A stretch of 8,222 bases of DNA from Thermoplasmata archaeon. GTDB lineage: Archaea > Thermoplasmatota > Thermoplasmata > Thermoplasmatales > Thermoplasmataceae. Position numbers and translations under genes: made by a program. This document shows positions 2,352 to 7,710 of the stretch, in pieces. The stretch spans positions 1 to 8,222 of the forward strand of contig JAJZYV010000065.1 of assembly GCA_021797955.1 (NCBI GenBank). Direction: 5' to 3'. The stretch's first letter is position 1. Every line of letters begins with the position of its first letter. The notes under the pieces were generated by a model that saw nothing but the letters and a program-made list of their open reading frames with translations, was not told the origin of the DNA and searched no databases.

Positions 2352-2936
2352 ATGCGGAATGGCCAGGTTAGTTTACTTTTAAGTGGTGGAATAGATTCTA
2401 CGGCAGTTCTAGCATACTATTTAGAAAATGGCTTTGACACGAGAGCATACTTTATTCATTACGGGCATGCAGCAAATGATATTGAATATAAACATGCACA
2501 AATTGTTAGTGAGCACTATAATACTTCATTGACGTTACTTAGATTCACCGGAGCAACATATACTGGAAAATGGGAGATAACTGGGAGAAATGCATTTCTA
2601 ATTCTTTCAGTTATAATAGCGAGTCAATCTTACTCGGGAATCATATCTGCCGGAATACACAAAGGATCCTCGTATTATGACTGCAACGAAAATTTTATAA
2701 ACACGATGAAAAAGCTTATTAGTGGATATTCGGAAGGTGCTGTTCAACTAGATTTTCCGTTATTTGAAATGACAAAGGATGAGATTATCACTTATTCCAA
2801 GTTGCATAACGTTCCGATCGAAAGTACTTATAGTTGTCAAATTGGCACGGATAAGCCCTGCGGAAAATGTCCGTCCTGTATAGAAAGAAGTGTGGCAATG
2901 CGGTATGTCTATAATAAAGACAGGGTGGATAAATAA
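2352..2936 (+). CDS. cap9: QueC-like 7-deazaguanine enzyme (Cap9-like)
   Basis: This 194-residue protein belongs to the QueC family, ATP-dependent enzymes that convert 7-carboxy-7-deazaguanine to preQ0. The PP-loop SGGIDS is at residues 11-16, the QueC-like TGRN motif at 77-80, and YYDCNENFI at 108-115 matches the QueC YPDCR region. The zinc site is Cys162, Cys170, Cys173 and Cys176 (C-x7-CGKCPSC). It is shorter than typical QueC (about 220-230 residues), and the usual YGQRH motif reads YGHAA. No queE, queD or arcS lies nearby, so it does not serve a local archaeosine pathway. It sits one base before the CD-NTase gene, whose product begins MGGG. This suggests it is a Cap9 that activates the deazaguanine acid and joins it to the CD-NTase N-terminus, using a host archaeosine precursor. 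Family assignment is firm; the protein-modifying role is inferred. Confidence 0.88.
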   Translation: MRNGQVSLLLSGGIDSTAVLAYYLENGFDTRAYFIHYGHAANDIEYKHAQIVSEHYNTSLTLLRFTGATYTGKWEITGRNAFLILSVIIASQSYSGIISAGIHKGSSYYDCNENFINTMKKLISGYSEGAVQLDFPLFEMTKDEIITYSKLHNVPIESTYSCQIGTDKPCGKCPSCIERSVAMRYVYNKDRVDK

Positions 2937-2937
2937 A

Positions 2938-3891
2938 ATGGGTGGTGGAACCCCTATAGGGAATTCAAGTTGGTCTTCTGGAGGGCCGATGACAGATGAA
3001 AAAGTACAAAGTGAAATTGATAGTGCACTTGAGAACACTAAGAGATTAGAATTCGAAACGGAGGTAAATGTGAGGCTCAAGGAAGCATTATCAAGCTATA
3101 ATGAAAAAGATACTGAACTCGTCAATGAAAGATTAAGTGAAATTAAAGAATTGTTGTCCAAATATCTGGAGACTTCTATAGATATAAGGCGTGGGGGCTC
3201 GTGGAAAAAGCATACTTACATTGATGGTCTGAGTGATGTTGACTGCTTGTTCATACTAAATTCGCCCGAGTTTTCTGGGGAATCCCCAAAACACCTCAAT
3301 GATGAGTTAAAAACGCTTCTTCAAGAGAAACTCGGAAACAGGGCAAAAGTTGAAAGAGGTAATCTATCATTAAAAATAACCTACGAAAATGTGCCAGATT
3401 TACAAATTTTGCTAGCACTTAGGAACGATAAAGGTTTACGAATCCCATCAGGTGATCAGGATAGCTGGTCTGGGGTTATAAATCCTGAGAAATTTGCTAA
3501 ACAGCTTACTGAAACTAACAAAAGTTTAAATGGGAACGTTATCCCAGTGATTAAAATCGTGAAAGGGGCAGTTATTGGAACGGGGATAAATCCAGACATG
3601 AAAGGATATCATGTAGAGGCATTAGCTGTAGAAATTTTTCAAGGTTATCAAGGAGAACAAACTAAAAAGGCTATGCTGGAATATTTTTTCTTGAAGGCAT
3701 CTGAAATGGTAAGAAAGCCTATTAAAGAGATATCAGGTCAGTCCCAGTACGTTGATGATTATCTCGGCGATTCTGGTAGCGCGGAACGGGAAAATGTTTC
3801 AAGAGAGCTAAAACGCAGAAGTGATGGGTTAGCTAGGGCTGACTACAAATTCTCAGTAGATGATTGGTTTAACAATATTGGTTTATCATGA
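2938..3891 (+). CDS. CD-NTase (cyclic oligonucleotide synthase)
   Basis: This is a 317-residue cGAS/DncV-like nucleotidyltransferase, the alarm-signal synthase of CBASS. The polymerase-beta motif GGS is at residues 86-88, followed by the catalytic pair Asp100 and Asp102 (SDVD). The third acid is probably Asp154 in VPDLQIL. RIPSGDQDSW and NPEKFAKQL then follow, as is typical of the family. I chose ATG 2938 rather than the in-frame ATG at 2890, which would overlap the upstream gene by 47 bases. GGGTG at 2923-2927 may serve as ribosome site. The chosen start gives a flexible N-terminus MGGGTPIGNSSWSSGGPM, rich in Gly and Ser; Met removal would expose Gly2, a suitable acceptor for the neighbouring QueC-like enzyme. 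The residues above indicate an active enzyme. Its product cannot be told from sequence. Confidence 0.92.
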   Translation: MGGGTPIGNSSWSSGGPMTDEKVQSEIDSALENTKRLEFETEVNVRLKEALSSYNEKDTELVNERLSEIKELLSKYLETSIDIRRGGSWKKHTYIDGLSDVDCLFILNSPEFSGESPKHLNDELKTLLQEKLGNRAKVERGNLSLKITYENVPDLQILLALRNDKGLRIPSGDQDSWSGVINPEKFAKQLTETNKSLNGNVIPVIKIVKGAVIGTGINPDMKGYHVEALAVEIFQGYQGEQTKKAMLEYFFLKASEMVRKPIKEISGQSQYVDDYLGDSGSAERENVSRELKRRSDGLARADYKFSVDDWFNNIGLS

Positions 3892-3922
3892 GTGTGACAG
3901 TGGTGTAGATAAATAGAATTTA

Positions 3923-3927
3923 GGGTG
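3923..3927 (+). promoter_or_regulatory. Ribosome binding site deciding the TTG start at 3936
   Basis: GGGTG matches the archaeal anti-Shine-Dalgarno and lies 8 bases before TTG at 3936. The longer reading would start at GTG 3927, which overlaps this element and has no site of its own. This favours 3936. Confidence 0.55.
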
Positions 3928-3935
3928 TGAGAAAT

Positions 3936-5132
3936 TTGAAAATAATAGGTGGTATTTATCGGGAAATCTGTATCGACCCTCAATCTGATAATCTATATGG
4001 ATCGGCAATGAGGTCAGCGGTTGCTGTCTCTAAAGGATGCGAAGATCTAAGTTTAGTTGGAATGGTGGAACCGGAACTGAAGGAGAATATTGCGTCATTA
4101 GCCAAGACTTTTAATTTTAAAATCGAAATCAAAGACCGGAGAAACGAAATTGAATTTATTTATGATACTCCTCTCAGTTCGCCTAGAATTTATGGTCTCA
4201 AGACCAATACTATCTCAACAATTGAGGCTTCAGCTAACAATATCCTTTGCTTCGCAATGGTAGAAGCCAATATAAAAGTAAGCGCACATCATTTAGTTGT
4301 TGATCCACAAGGGTTATCCAAAATAGATGGGAGGATATTATGGTCTGCGGATCATCTTGCAATAGTTGCTAACAAGTGGGAAGTCACACGACTTTTGGGT
4401 GTGGAAGAAAATTTAGACATGGAAACTCTTGCAGAAAAATTGCGAGATAAATACGATGCGGAAATAGCTGTTGTTAAGTGTGGAGCTCTTGGTGCTGTAG
4501 TTTTAGATTCTTGTGGTTTGCAACGAGTTCCTGCATATCGTACTAAGAGAGTGAACCCAATAGGATCAGGGGACATTTTTAGCAGCGTTTTTGCTTTTTA
4601 TTGGGCTGAAATGCGTACTACACCCAAGATTGCAGCTGAGAACGCATCAAAGGCAACTGCAGAATGGGTAATGAACGGACCTTTGCAGGTTATAAGTGGT
4701 AATAAAAATGTTACCGCTCCAAATGCTGAAGTGCCGATCTCAGGCCAATCATCAACAGTTTATCTAGCTGCTCCTTTCTTTACAGTATCAGAGCGTTGGT
4801 TGGTCGACTTATGCAAAAGTGCACTTACAAATTTAGGAGCAACAGTCTTTTCACCTATGCATGATGTGGGAGTTGGAAATACAGGTAATATTGCATTTAG
4901 AGATTTGGAGGGCCTAAAATCGTCTAATGCCGTATTTGCAGTATTAGATGGAATGGATCCTGGTACATTGTTTGAAGTTGGATATGGTACCGCCATAAAT
5001 AAGCCTATAGTGATTTATGTTAACGATAGGAAAAACAATAATCTCACAATGTTTAAAACAAATAATACCAATATACATGAAGATCTGTCTAGTGCAATTT
5101 ATGATGCTGTTTGGTTGGGCATCTATACTTAA
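3936..5132 (+). CDS. PfkB-like kinase fused to nucleoside 2-deoxyribosyltransferase domain
   Basis: This 398-residue two-domain protein starts at TTG (GTG 3927 is possible and adds three residues). Residues 1 to about 255 resemble PfkB-family sugar/nucleoside kinases. The signature is PIGSGDIF, with the anion-hole Gly-Ser-Gly and putative catalytic Asp213, preceded by VVKCGALGAVVL. The N-terminal half is short and lacks the usual glycine-rich first PfkB signature, so it may bind rather than phosphorylate a nucleoside. Residues from about 275 form an NDT domain: VYLAAPFF, MHDVG (308-312), LDGMD with Asp338 and Asp341, and GTLFEVGYG with the expected nucleophile Glu347. NDT enzymes swap or hydrolyse the base of deoxynucleosides. 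In this operon it may exchange or remove a base, possibly a deazapurine. It starts 44 bases after the CD-NTase gene. Domain calls are strong; the role is inferred. Confidence 0.85.
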   Translation: MKIIGGIYREICIDPQSDNLYGSAMRSAVAVSKGCEDLSLVGMVEPELKENIASLAKTFNFKIEIKDRRNEIEFIYDTPLSSPRIYGLKTNTISTIEASANNILCFAMVEANIKVSAHHLVVDPQGLSKIDGRILWSADHLAIVANKWEVTRLLGVEENLDMETLAEKLRDKYDAEIAVVKCGALGAVVLDSCGLQRVPAYRTKRVNPIGSGDIFSSVFAFYWAEMRTTPKIAAENASKATAEWVMNGPLQVISGNKNVTAPNAEVPISGQSSTVYLAAPFFTVSERWLVDLCKSALTNLGATVFSPMHDVGVGNTGNIAFRDLEGLKSSNAVFAVLDGMDPGTLFEVGYGTAINKPIVIYVNDRKNNNLTMFKTNNTNIHEDLSSAIYDAVWLGIYT

Positions 5133-5141
5133 TCCATTAAC

Positions 5142-5149
5142 TTAAATAT
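5142..5149 (+). promoter_or_regulatory. Possible internal TATA box before the effector gene
   Basis: TTAAATAT lies in the 90-base gap after the PfkB-NDT stop, the largest gap in the operon. A start about 25 bases downstream would fall just before the leader ORF at 5179. It could allow separate expression of the last three genes. Confidence 0.35.
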
Positions 5150-5178
5150 CTCAAGATTAATAAAATGTGAGGGAAGAT

Positions 5179-5226
5179 ATGAAAACTAAAGAAACACAAC
5201 ATGAAGAAAAGGAGGTTAATGGTTGA
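5179..5226 (+). CDS. 15-codon leader ORF coupled to the effector gene
   Basis: ATG at 5179 opens a 15-codon frame, MKTKETQHEEKEVNG, rich in Lys and Glu. GAGGGA about 7 bases upstream could act as ribosome site. Its TGA (5224-5226) overlaps the TTG start of the downstream gene (TTGA), and its last codons contain the GGAGG site of that gene. Ribosomes ending here would be placed to restart at TTG, so translational coupling is likely if the frame is translated. It is too short for family recognition and could be chance. Confidence 0.35.
   Translation: MKTKETQHEEKEVNG
5211..5215 (+). promoter_or_regulatory. Strong ribosome binding site for the TTG start at 5223
   Basis: GGAGG, within AAAAGGAGGTTAAT, lies 7 bases before TTG 5223. 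The nearest ATG (5219) is in another frame that soon stops, and the next in-frame Met is residue 33. The TTG start is therefore well supported. Confidence 0.75.
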
Positions 5227-6389
5227 AATTAGACGGAAAAATTGTTCACATATCTGGTAGCGCCTCTGTTAATACAGAATCAAAGCTAATTGAATATGGG
5301 CACGGATTGATTAGGTCAATGGTCAATAAGCTTCTAAGAAGAGGAGCAAGGTTTTTAATACAAGTTGGCAAGGAAGATCACAAAACAACAAACGGTTCTG
5401 ATGTCCCATTAATATTTGATTGGACAGTAATGTCTGAAATAAACAACTATATTATAGAAAACGGTCAGGAGTTCAAAAATTGTTCAAGAAAACCAATAGT
5501 CACCGTGGTGAAGCAAGATTTTATAACTTCAATACCTCCAGTTAAACTAAATCTTTGGAGATCTCTAATGGAAAGGGGAGCCCTTCAAATAGAATTCTTG
5601 GAGGAGGGTTGGTCATCAGGGGCTATTAGGAGAATCAGAATGTCAGAACTAGGAGATATATTAATAATAATAAGTGGTGGGGAGGGAGTAGAACACCTTG
5701 CAGAGGAATATAATCGGCAGTTCAAACCAATTATTCCACTAGATCTTGATCTTGGTTCAAGCAAAGGAGATGGCAATGGCGGTGGATCAAAATTATTCAA
5801 GAAAATGTTGGCAAGATATGATTCATTTATTAGTTTGGAAAAACCTATATCGGCCGGCGAGCTATTCCTAAATATAAAAACTGATAATGGAGTAAGGCCC
5901 TTTAAAGATGTAACTGAGGGAATAACAAAGTTGATCGATAACATAACTCCTCCTATGGCTTTTTATGTTAGACTGTTGTCAACATATGAAGCAGAATATA
6001 AGGAAGTGGAAAATTTCTTTCGGCAAGTTGTAGATCCCTTAATGAAAGAAAATGGATATTCAATAAAAGAGATGGGGATTCAAAAACCAAATGATGCATG
6101 GATGAACGTTGAAATTTTCGAGAATTTGCACAAGGCTGCCTTAGTGGTTGTAGATTTGACAGGATTAAGACCAAATTGCTTAATTGAACTTGGATATGCT
6201 CTTGGTAGACCTTCAAAGGTAATACTTACTGCAAAGAAAGATACTATACTACCATTTGATGCCAAAATGTACGAATGTTGCTTTTGGGACACTAAAGAGC
6301 AAATAGAATTAACTGCCAAAAAACTCAAGGATTACTTTGAAAGGAATTTTAATCGTCCGTCGGTCATAAGGTATAAGGATGTGCTATGA
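5223..6389 (+). CDS. SLOG-domain protein with TIR/NDT-like C-terminus, likely CBASS effector
   Basis: This 388-residue protein starts at TTG after a strong GGAGG site. The N-terminal half (about 5-200) looks like a SLOG (Smf/DprA-LOG) Rossmann domain: KIVHISGSAS near the start, RRGARFLIQVG at 39-49, ILIIISGGEGVEHLAEEY at 146-163, and KPIIPLDLDLG followed by a glycine-rich GDGNGGGSK. SLOG domains bind nucleotide-derived ligands; the SLOG of ThsA in Thoeris senses a cyclic ADP-ribose signal. The C-terminal half (about 245-350) is TIR/NDT-like: Asp311 in VVVDLTG, RPNCLIELGYA with candidate catalytic Glu322, then LPFDAK. This arrangement fits a sensor coupled to a nucleotide-degrading enzyme, such as an NADase. 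No transmembrane segment is seen. It overlaps the next gene by ATGA. Effector status is inferred from domains and from the lack of a better candidate. Confidence 0.82.
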   Translation: MKLDGKIVHISGSASVNTESKLIEYGHGLIRSMVNKLLRRGARFLIQVGKEDHKTTNGSDVPLIFDWTVMSEINNYIIENGQEFKNCSRKPIVTVVKQDFITSIPPVKLNLWRSLMERGALQIEFLEEGWSSGAIRRIRMSELGDILIIISGGEGVEHLAEEYNRQFKPIIPLDLDLGSSKGDGNGGGSKLFKKMLARYDSFISLEKPISAGELFLNIKTDNGVRPFKDVTEGITKLIDNITPPMAFYVRLLSTYEAEYKEVENFFRQVVDPLMKENGYSIKEMGIQKPNDAWMNVEIFENLHKAALVVVDLTGLRPNCLIELGYALGRPSKVILTAKKDTILPFDAKMYECCFWDTKEQIELTAKKLKDYFERNFNRPSVIRYKDVL

Positions 6390-6958
6390 AATCACCTAAA
6401 CAGAATGTTAACAATACAAGCGAGATCTACATATCAGTAGACATAGAAGCCTCTGGTCCAATTCCATGTAAATATAGCATGCTCTCGCTCGGGGCGTGTG
6501 TAGTCGGCGATACCAGTAGTAACTTTTATTCTGAGATTAAACCAATCAACGATTCATTTGTTCCACAAGCAATTGAAATTAGTGGTTTTAATCTTGACCA
6601 TCTAAAATCCGCTGGACTTGAGCCAGAAACAGCTCTTAAATCCTTTGCTGAATGGATTGAGCGTATTTCAAACAATAAAATTCCGATTTTTGTAGGTTTT
6701 AATGCTCCGTTCGACTGGCAATTTATAAATTGGTATTTTCATATTTATACTGGTTCTAATCCCTTTGGAATAAATGCAATTGATATTAAAGCTTACTTTA
6801 TGGGTGCGGCAGGTATAGCGTGGAGCAAGACCTCCTCCAGCAATCTACCCGAATGGCTAAAAGCGGAGAATAAAGAGAAGCATAACGCATTGAATGATGC
6901 GATTTCACAGTCTATTATTTTCGAGCGATTACTTAAATGGAACCGTGATAAGCGATGA
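6386..6958 (+). CDS. DEDDh-type 3'-5' exonuclease (DnaQ/RNase T-like)
   Basis: This 190-residue stand-alone exonuclease has every residue of the DEDDh site. Exo I is ISVDIEASGP with Asp19 and Glu21, Exo II is GFNAPFDWQF with Asp110, and Exo III is KHNALNDA with His166 and Asp171. Such enzymes use two metal ions to remove nucleotides from 3' ends of DNA or RNA. AGGATG at 6376-6381 may serve as ribosome site, and the ATG overlaps the upstream stop (ATGA), so it is translationally coupled to the effector gene. The stop in turn overlaps the next gene. There is no fused polymerase or helicase domain. In a CBASS setting it could degrade phage or damaged nucleic acid or trim ends made by the glycosylase. 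It could also break down linear signal products. The substrate cannot be read from sequence. Confidence 0.9.
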   Translation: MKSPKQNVNNTSEIYISVDIEASGPIPCKYSMLSLGACVVGDTSSNFYSEIKPINDSFVPQAIEISGFNLDHLKSAGLEPETALKSFAEWIERISNNKIPIFVGFNAPFDWQFINWYFHIYTGSNPFGINAIDIKAYFMGAAGIAWSKTSSSNLPEWLKAENKEKHNALNDAISQSIIFERLLKWNRDKR

Positions 6959-7710
6959 CTTCTGATTTGTCTGTTGTTCGTGTAAAGAGGGATAAATGGC
7001 AAGATGGCGATGATGGCTCTTTGATAAAATCAAACATATCCAACATAGATAATTACGAATCACCTATTATTTGCGGACTAGACATAGTGGAAGGGTATAA
7101 AAAATGTAAAAAGTTAGTCATAGACGCAGGTTTCAAAACTGAAATAGAATGGCAAAGCAATATAGACATAGACCAGCTTACTGAAAGTACCTTTCTTCGT
7201 GAGCATGCATGGGTAACTTTATCTTCAGGTATGAAAGAAAAAGTTGTTCGTACTATATTCCAAAGATTTTCTCAAATATTTTACAATTGGAAATCAGCAG
7301 AAGTTATTATGAAAAACGAACATCTTTGCAGAGATGCAGCGTTTGCAATCTTTGCCAACAATAAAAAGATTGAGGCCATCTTGCAAACTTCCCGCATAAT
7401 CTCTACTGATGGTTTTGAGGAAGTAAAGAGATCAATAATGGAGAATCCTGAAAAGATATTGATGGAATTCCCATATATTGGGCCAGTCACATATTATCAT
7501 TTAGCTAAGAATATCGGGCTACATGTTGCAAAACCAGATAGACATCTATCTAAACTTGCCAGAGAGCTTAATATTTCAAGTGTCCAAACACTATGTAGCT
7601 ATATAGGGAAAAGAACTGGCGATATTATTCCTGTGGTTGACATTGTGCTTTGGAGATATGCAACAATAACAGAAGACTTTGTGATTAAATTTATTGAATT
7701 ATCTAAATAA
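6955..7710 (+). CDS. cap11: HhH-GPD DNA glycosylase, OGG-like (Cap11-like)
   Basis: This 251-residue protein has a helical N-terminal part (FLREHAWVTLSSGMKEKVVR at 80-99) and a helix-hairpin-helix at about 172-186 (FPYIGPVTYYHLAKN). The catalytic-Asp region follows as KPDRHLSKLA, with Asp195. In OGG1 and endonuclease III a lysine in the hairpin attacks C1'. Aligned by eye, that position is Val178 here, so it would act as an AlkA-like monofunctional glycosylase or use another residue. The C-terminal segment VVDIVLWRYA fits the family. Type IV CBASS carries an OGG-like ancillary protein, Cap11, and this is the counterpart. It starts within the upstream stop (ATGA), with GTGAT 5 bases ahead, and closes the operon. 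The target base is unknown; a deazaguanine-type or damaged base is a possibility. Confidence 0.85.
   Translation: MTSDLSVVRVKRDKWQDGDDGSLIKSNISNIDNYESPIICGLDIVEGYKKCKKLVIDAGFKTEIEWQSNIDIDQLTESTFLREHAWVTLSSGMKEKVVRTIFQRFSQIFYNWKSAEVIMKNEHLCRDAAFAIFANNKKIEAILQTSRIISTDGFEEVKRSIMENPEKILMEFPYIGPVTYYHLAKNIGLHVAKPDRHLSKLARELNISSVQTLCSYIGKRTGDIIPVVDIVLWRYATITEDFVIKFIELSK

Follow-up and report, generated by a model that had tools for sequence, protein, structure and literature searches.

The window, that is, the whole stretch of 8,222 nucleotides that was analyzed, lies within an 8,919-base contig of the 2.08 Mb genome of a Thermoplasmata archaeon (G000, 86% complete). Based on the ORF list, Pfam and PADLOC, positions 2352–7710 carry six genes arranged head to tail on the + strand in the order Cap9/QueC-like gene, CD-NTase, PfkB-NDT fusion, Cap17-like gene, exonuclease and OGG. 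The first gene (2352–2936) encodes a Cap9-like QueC-family enzyme of 194 aa (Pfam QueC 1.1e-25, PADLOC QueC 1.4e-60, best PDB relative Cap9 in 9nto at 5.1e-36) and the second (2938–3891) a CdnD-like CD-NTase of 317 aa (PADLOC cyclase 6.4e-93, NCBIfam CBASS_cyclase_b above cut-off, best PDB relative CdnD in 9ntn/9nto at 1.1e-51). The third (3927–5132, GTG start as listed) encodes a 401 aa fusion of a PfkB (ribokinase-fold) kinase and a nucleoside 2-deoxyribosyltransferase (NDT). Two probable effectors follow, a Cap17-like ATP-nucleosidase-type protein (5223–6389, TTG start as listed, Pfam Cap17-like_N 1.2e-38, PADLOC “Effector, TIR” 3.8e-78) and a DnaQ-type 3′–5′ exonuclease (6386–6958, PADLOC “Effector, Exonuclease” 2.1e-75, Pfam RNase_T 8.9e-7). 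PADLOC labels the whole Cap17-like protein as a TIR effector, and its C-terminal half has no Pfam match. The last gene (6955–7710) encodes the OGG-type DNA glycosylase of type IV CBASS (PADLOC OGG 1.4e-82, 2e-84 with an HMM derived from the OGG genes of other loci) and is presumably a type IV CBASS gene. Upstream of the operon, a tRNA-Phe gene (gaa, 52–124, + strand) is separated from the Cap9 gene by approximately 2.2 kb, and the ORFs at 391–669 and 1311–1592 matched no Pfam family. The nearest named relative of the CD-NTase (65% identity) is found in another Thermoplasmata MAG (locus L011), on a contig that belongs to a genome assigned to the same order (G313, 93% complete) and that shows the gene order of the window. 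A scan of viral contigs with the CD-NTase as query gave no match.

The PP-loop (SGGIDS) and the four zinc-type cysteines that an earlier note on this DNA ascribed to the QueC-like enzyme are both present. Cap9 corresponds to QueC Cluster 9, for which the accessible part of PMC13329287 gives signature motifs. The window enzyme satisfies LxSGGxDS (LLSGGIDS), RN (GRN) and H(x)4YxDCxxxF (HKGSSYYDCNENF), the last of which includes the CDG-recognition motif YxDC. It carries YGH(x)5E for Y/FxQ(x)5E, PLFEMTK for PF(x)4K and, within CE(x)6CxxCxxCxD, CQ for CE and CIE for CxD; all four single replacements are shared with L011. The earlier note stated that the QueC-like Cap9 of type IV CBASS joins a 7-deazaguanine to the N-terminus of the CD-NTase, and this is supported by the accessible text of two reports in which Cap9 attaches 7-carboxy-7-deazaguanine (CDG) to the type IV CBASS CD-NTase at its N-terminal glycine, the motif being MGGS (PMC11996544, PMC13279940). 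N-terminal deazaguanylation of a CD-NTase is thus already in print and holds no novelty by itself; for the CD-NTase of the window it is supported by analogy with these systems. The host probably makes the CDG itself, because its genome contains a separate canonical QueC that passes the NCBIfam cut-off, a QueD-like gene next to this QueC and a QueE-like gene (2.4e-54), both of which score below their cut-offs, and a TGT. The TGT carries C2 and PUA domains like the archaeosine enzyme, in keeping with an archaeal genome. A QueE gene was also observed near type IV CBASS genes in 6 out of 79 loci, five of them distinct (L054, L055, L063, L066, L068, and L082; L054 and L068 over the cut-off and L063, L066, and L082 below it), which fits a need for CDG.

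The TAA stop codon of the Cap9 gene (2934–2936) and the ATG of the CD-NTase (2938) are separated by the single base 2937, as had been described, and the stop codon of the CD-NTase ends at 3891. Direct reading likewise agrees with the proposed MGGG start and the Gly/Ser tail up to residue 17: codons 1–17 (2938–2988, + strand) encode MGGGTPIGNSSWSSGGP, the presumed acceptor, and are followed by Met18. Alternative starts are mechanically possible upstream (entry P0002, the CD-NTase of the window read from the upstream start, 328 aa) and at Met18. Among the first 26 homologues listed, the only entries with Met18 are P0001 and P0002, both of them the CD-NTase of the window, and the Gly-rich tail is kept in the remaining homologues (P0006 is a fragment without the tail region). 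MGGG at 2938 is therefore the likely start, and Met18, which the earlier note had raised as an objection to its own proposal, was rejected as unconserved. The sequence alone leaves Met18 some room because a GGAGG lies four bases 5′ of it.

The check suggested in the earlier note was whether Gly2-Gly3 is conserved in CD-NTases beside QueC-like genes and not in others. When the start was assigned blind to the motif, as the start codon nearest to the Cap10 stop in 71 loci with a Cap10 cluster gene, residue 2 was Gly in 62 out of 71 and Gly, Ala, Ser or Cys in 69 out of 71, and residue 3 was Gly in 63 out of 71; L022 and L066, which lack a small residue 2, regain Gly2 when read from an ATG located one or two codons downstream. 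When starts were taken as listed, the 95 homologues that are 280 aa or longer contain Gly (69), Ser (14), Ala (6) or another residue (6) at position 2 and Gly at position 3 in 81 cases. Closer to the window, the 15 homologues at 60% identity or more (290 aa, starts as listed) contain Ser (9), Gly (4), Ala (1) or Leu (1) at position 2. Upstream starts in this set belong to P0002 and P0003; with P0002 left out and P0003 read from its inner Met, the nearest clade shows Ser2 in 9, Gly2 in 4 (window included) and Ala2 in 1 of 14 members. Ser2 does not strictly track the NDT, since the members of the clade at 44–50% identity all have Gly2 (10 out of 10). These alignments point to a small residue 2, mostly followed by Gly3, as the conserved feature, and strict Gly2 is not kept. 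A small residue 2 permits removal of the initiator Met by methionine aminopeptidase, and because Gly2 is replaced by Ser2 or Ala2 in close relatives the presumed acceptor is better defined as a small residue after Met removal. Conservation beside QueC-like genes thus holds for a small residue 2 and, mostly, for Gly3 and fails for strict Gly2, Ser2 being the commoner residue among close relatives. The loss of Gly in close relatives, which the earlier note had named as a ground for refutation, is therefore partly seen, but it leaves modification of the N-terminal amine unrefuted.

The contrast with other CD-NTases is 62 out of 71 with Gly2 against none with a Gly tail in a small control of three SMODS-matching proteins with author-chosen starts and no QueC found in the surrounding 2.1–3.5 kb (L260, L233, and L242). 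A SMODS search of the 389 genomes of the phylum returned mostly open frames of approximately 445 aa, which were taken for CCA-adding enzymes and are of little use as a control, and a search of 41 genomes behind other loci at E 1e-12 gave two matches, one of which is a type IV CD-NTase accompanied by both Cap9 and Cap10. A Lokiarchaeal CD-NTase (L038, 6874–8979) starts with MGDSRTKG and has no Gly-rich tail; Cap9 and Cap10 were not found at this locus, and an upstream protein of 388 aa has no PADLOC family match.

Cap10 was reported to be essential in the system studied in PMC11996544, as far as its accessible text goes. According to the Cap10 HMM it is absent from the contig of the window, a point that the earlier note did not see, and Cap10 was found neither elsewhere in the 86% complete genome, archaeosine TGT aside, nor in G313. 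The Pfam TGT model was rejected as a test for Cap10 after it missed the Cap10 protein on which it was tried; PADLOC TGT and a Cap10 alignment were used instead. A genome scan yielded 79 loci, 78 of them distinct (L054 and L055 are identical), and in the HMM tally Cap10 is present in 72, Cap9 in 71 and both in 70. The 79 loci divide into 70 that combine Cap9 with Cap10 and contain no full PfkB-NDT, one with Cap9 and PfkB-NDT and no Cap10, two with Cap10 only (L059 and L084, where Cap10 adjoins the contig end) and six with neither. Three of these six (L069, L086, and L089) are cut by a contig end before or within the CD-NTase; of the others, L088 has its CD-NTase in pieces, and L081, a short contig, and L038 include 3.5 kb and 8 kb of upstream sequence, respectively. 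The single Cap9 locus without Cap10 among the 71 is L011, which carries PfkB-NDT. Within the phylum, 3 out of 389 genomes match the CD-NTase: G000 and G313, each with a full-length PfkB-NDT and no Cap10 found, and G088, with Cap10 (6.8e-118) and no PfkB-NDT match. The other 33 of the 389 genomes that match the PfkB-NDT query do so in one domain only or weakly. The two genes occupy different slots, with Cap10 preceding the CD-NTase and PfkB-NDT following it.

The Cap10-less state was seen directly at two loci, the window and L011. In addition, eight CD-NTase entries (P0008, P0012, P0015, P0019, P0021, P0025, P0026, and P0028) pair with a PfkB-NDT entry by a longest contig of equal size, from which we infer that the two genes are co-located. 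None of the other 89 CD-NTase entries is so paired and all eight fall within the 28 closest CD-NTases; the pairing used 117 of the best 120 of 704 PfkB-NDT homologues. In a tree of 95 rows, 19 clade CD-NTases form one split with 100/100 support, and a PfkB-NDT neighbor was seen or inferred for nine of them. Because the Cap10-less state is confined to this one clade, the change from Cap10 to PfkB-NDT is best read as one evolutionary event. The kinase half of the fusion has a ribokinase fold (VIA-align table, kinase part only). Residues N149, E152, G213, G215, D216, D344, and E350 are invariant in 28 aligned PfkB-NDT sequences, and the NxxE and GxGD motifs of PfkB and the Asp and Glu of NDT, which we take to be active-site residues, are all kept in the fusion of the window.

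Outside CBASS, PfkB-NDT belongs to a three-gene unit with a different tailed protein. All 26 full-length loci that were read (L126–L150 and L224, from plasmids, viral contigs and E. coli) contain a small HIRAN-like gene directly upstream and a QueC-like gene directly downstream of PfkB-NDT; they represent 25 distinct loci, since L224 repeats L130 (100% DNA identity over a 3 kb query). The plasmid search matched 75 records (39 with at least 80% coverage), of which 20 were read, 18 entering the count and two (H25 and H35) kept apart, and the viral loci read were the seven with a full-length match among 80 of 198 relatives. More distant PfkB-NDT members may have other partners, because the sampling followed similarity to the window and few records were read. 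The CD-NTase HMM found no CD-NTase beside the 26 loci, save a weak match in L136 (8e-4). The HIRAN-like protein starts with Met, then Ser, Gly or Cys, then Gly in 24 out of 26 loci, with MSSG in L139 and no such start in L133; the start is an inner ATG in L145, L147, and L150, and in L126, L129, L132, L134, L137, and L138 it is unannotated and the first ATG of the frame was chosen. The 81 homologues of this protein in the database have Gly at position 3 in 74 cases; at position 2, Ser is found in 53, Cys in 14 and Gly in 5. The folded part of the HIRAN-like protein P0242 resembles a HIRAN domain in Foldseek, with high probability and a weak E-value of 0.04. The HIRAN domain of human HLTF binds DNA 3′ ends. 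The neighbors of these units include restriction, dGTPase, TIR and mobile-element genes, and some of the loci have an Ogg-HhH glycosylase, DNA adenine methylase or dGTPase nearby. We assign the QueC partner to QueC Cluster 4 on the basis of its PfkB neighbor and the motif CH(x)5CxxCxGCxK. It has no YxDC motif, so its base may differ from CDG.

A third QueC-containing operon was observed at L228 (3995–8357) and L229 (4004–8398), which encode a PfkB protein with a decayed NDT, a TIR-TGT fusion, Ogg-HhH, QueC and a ThsB-like TIR protein. Pfam gives no NDT match for the PfkB protein of either locus; both proteins carry substitutions at the positions corresponding to Y279 and D344, whereas E350 is replaced in L229 and kept in L228. 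The TGT-like part of the fusion is matched by Pfam TGT at 1.1e-9 in L229 and at only 0.0014 in L228. The ThsB-like TIR protein adjoining QueC starts with MGGGSSGSW or MGGGGGGNW and is a possible further target of modification. A stand-alone PfkB kinase occurs in 3 out of 79 CBASS loci, each of which also has Cap9 and Cap10 (L053, 11627–12493; L062, 8993–10372; L087, 10985–12433). In the loci examined, an intact NDT is fused to PfkB where no TGT-like protein was seen, and the NDT is decayed or absent where a TGT-like protein is present. Mainly because the two exclude each other in this way, we read TGT and NDT as potentially interchangeable handlers of protein-linked nucleobases.

The reading that we consider probable is that the window encodes a type IV-like CBASS in which Cap9 puts CDG on the tail of the CD-NTase and PfkB-NDT takes the role of Cap10. 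After Met removal, Cap9 would activate host-made CDG with ATP and attach it to the tail at its free N-terminal amine, a step demonstrated for related proteins. In known type IV CBASS the modified tail is bound by Cap10, a TGT-family protein; here PfkB-NDT may bind, and possibly process, the protein-linked deazaguanine and so control signaling by the CD-NTase, as its place among these genes suggests. The cyclic nucleotide would then switch on the Cap17-like nucleosidase, the exonuclease or both, judging by their families. PfkB and NDT families handle nucleobases and sugars. A wider reading, which can be put forward only tentatively, is a family of defense systems in which a QueC-type ligase adds a nucleobase to a Gly-tailed N-terminus and a base-sugar enzyme then acts on it. 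The tailed protein would be a CD-NTase, a HIRAN-like protein or a ThsB-like TIR protein, and the base-sugar enzyme TGT-like (Cap10, TIR-TGT) or an NDT; NDT-PfkB would add (deoxy)ribose and phosphate, so that the protein ends in a nucleotide.

Other explanations of the operon give PfkB-NDT or the tail a different part. PfkB-NDT could be one more effector that is activated by the cyclic nucleotide and drains nucleotides, the loss of Cap10 being unrelated. Its position downstream of the CD-NTase beside two probable effectors agrees with this, as does the shared activity of NDT and Cap17-like enzymes on bonds of the nucleoside type, but such a role is unlikely given that every one of the full-length homologues read outside CBASS sits with QueC and a HIRAN-like protein and, apart from the weak L136 match, without a CD-NTase. 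Cap10 could also be supplied from elsewhere in the genome or be missing from the assembly, with PfkB-NDT as an added helper. The 86% completeness of G000 speaks for this, as does the stand-alone PfkB of L053, L062, and L087, which occurs in loci that do carry Cap10. That L011 repeats the gene order in a 93% complete genome in which Cap10 was not found, and that 70 out of 71 Cap9 loci carry Cap10 within the stretch examined, makes this account quite improbable.

The PfkB neighbor of QueC Cluster 4 has been noted before and assigned to purine salvage in the accessible part of PMC13329287, and PfkB-NDT might accordingly be a salvage enzyme here as well. This is very improbable: the constant third gene of the unit is a HIRAN-like gene with a Gly-tailed product in 24 out of 26 loci, the surrounding genes include those of restriction, dGTPase, TIR and mobile elements, and the place of PfkB-NDT in CBASS would be left unexplained. 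If the real start of the CD-NTase were Met18 or upstream, there would be no free Gly terminus and the QueC-like protein would make a free nucleobase. The GGAGG and the upstream start of one database entry (P0002) speak for such a start, but with Met18 missing from the others of the first 26 homologues listed (P0006 being a fragment), the tail conserved and a separate canonical QueC in the genome it is improbable in the extreme.

Compared with type IV CBASS (Wassarman et al. 2025, PMC11996544, as described in its accessible text), the window shares the homologous adjacent Cap9 and CD-NTase, the Gly-rich tail, OGG and CBASS effectors. It differs in that no Cap10/TGT was found and a PfkB-NDT fusion is present instead, and in that Ser2 is common in the close relatives of its CD-NTase. 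A 2TM effector is found in 55 out of 79 type IV loci by PADLOC, whereas the window has the Cap17-like protein and the exonuclease; the Cap17-like effector occurs in 15 of the 79 and the exonuclease, by BLAST, only in L011. We therefore file the window as a type IV-like variant and not as a full member, because it has a CdnD-kind CD-NTase, Cap9 and OGG and lacks the TGT-like Cap10. What is new here is this Cap10-less, PfkB-NDT-bearing type IV-like CBASS; apart from the PfkB neighbor of Cluster 4 in PMC13329287, none of the papers found in the open literature was recognized as connecting PfkB-NDT with either CBASS or a tailed HIRAN protein.

The qatABCD system (Gao et al. 2026, PMC13279940, accessible text) also contains an enzyme of the QueC family, and the partner of this enzyme carries on a flexible tail an N-terminal Gly motif (MGTS) that is essential. 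Unlike the tailed partner in the window, QatB is no CD-NTase, and QatC as described there is approximately 20 kDa larger, has N- and C-terminal extensions and carries Thr/Thr for the CDG-recognition Tyr/Asp, in contrast to the 194 aa enzyme with YxDC found here, which matches NCBIfam QatC at only 0.0014 and misses the cut-off. QueC Cluster 4 shares with the window the same PfkB-NDT family and a short QueC-like protein, but outside CBASS the QueC lacks YxDC and the tailed partner is HIRAN-like rather than a CD-NTase; the accessible part of PMC13329287, which proposes purine salvage, does not mention the tailed protein. The Cap10-less variant links CBASS to two other types of QueC-containing operons with Gly-tailed partners.

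The accessible text of the published accounts offers no explanation for the purpose of the protein-linked base. If an unrelated family of nucleobase/sugar enzymes can replace Cap10, the handling step is important and open to testing through two protein families that are independent of each other. The same reading, if true, also predicts the modified proteins of QueC Cluster 4 operons. This prediction is easy to test because a 3 kb piece of the three-gene unit has a match in 22 out of 5,426 E. coli genomes, and in 18 of these the match covers at least 80% of the piece.
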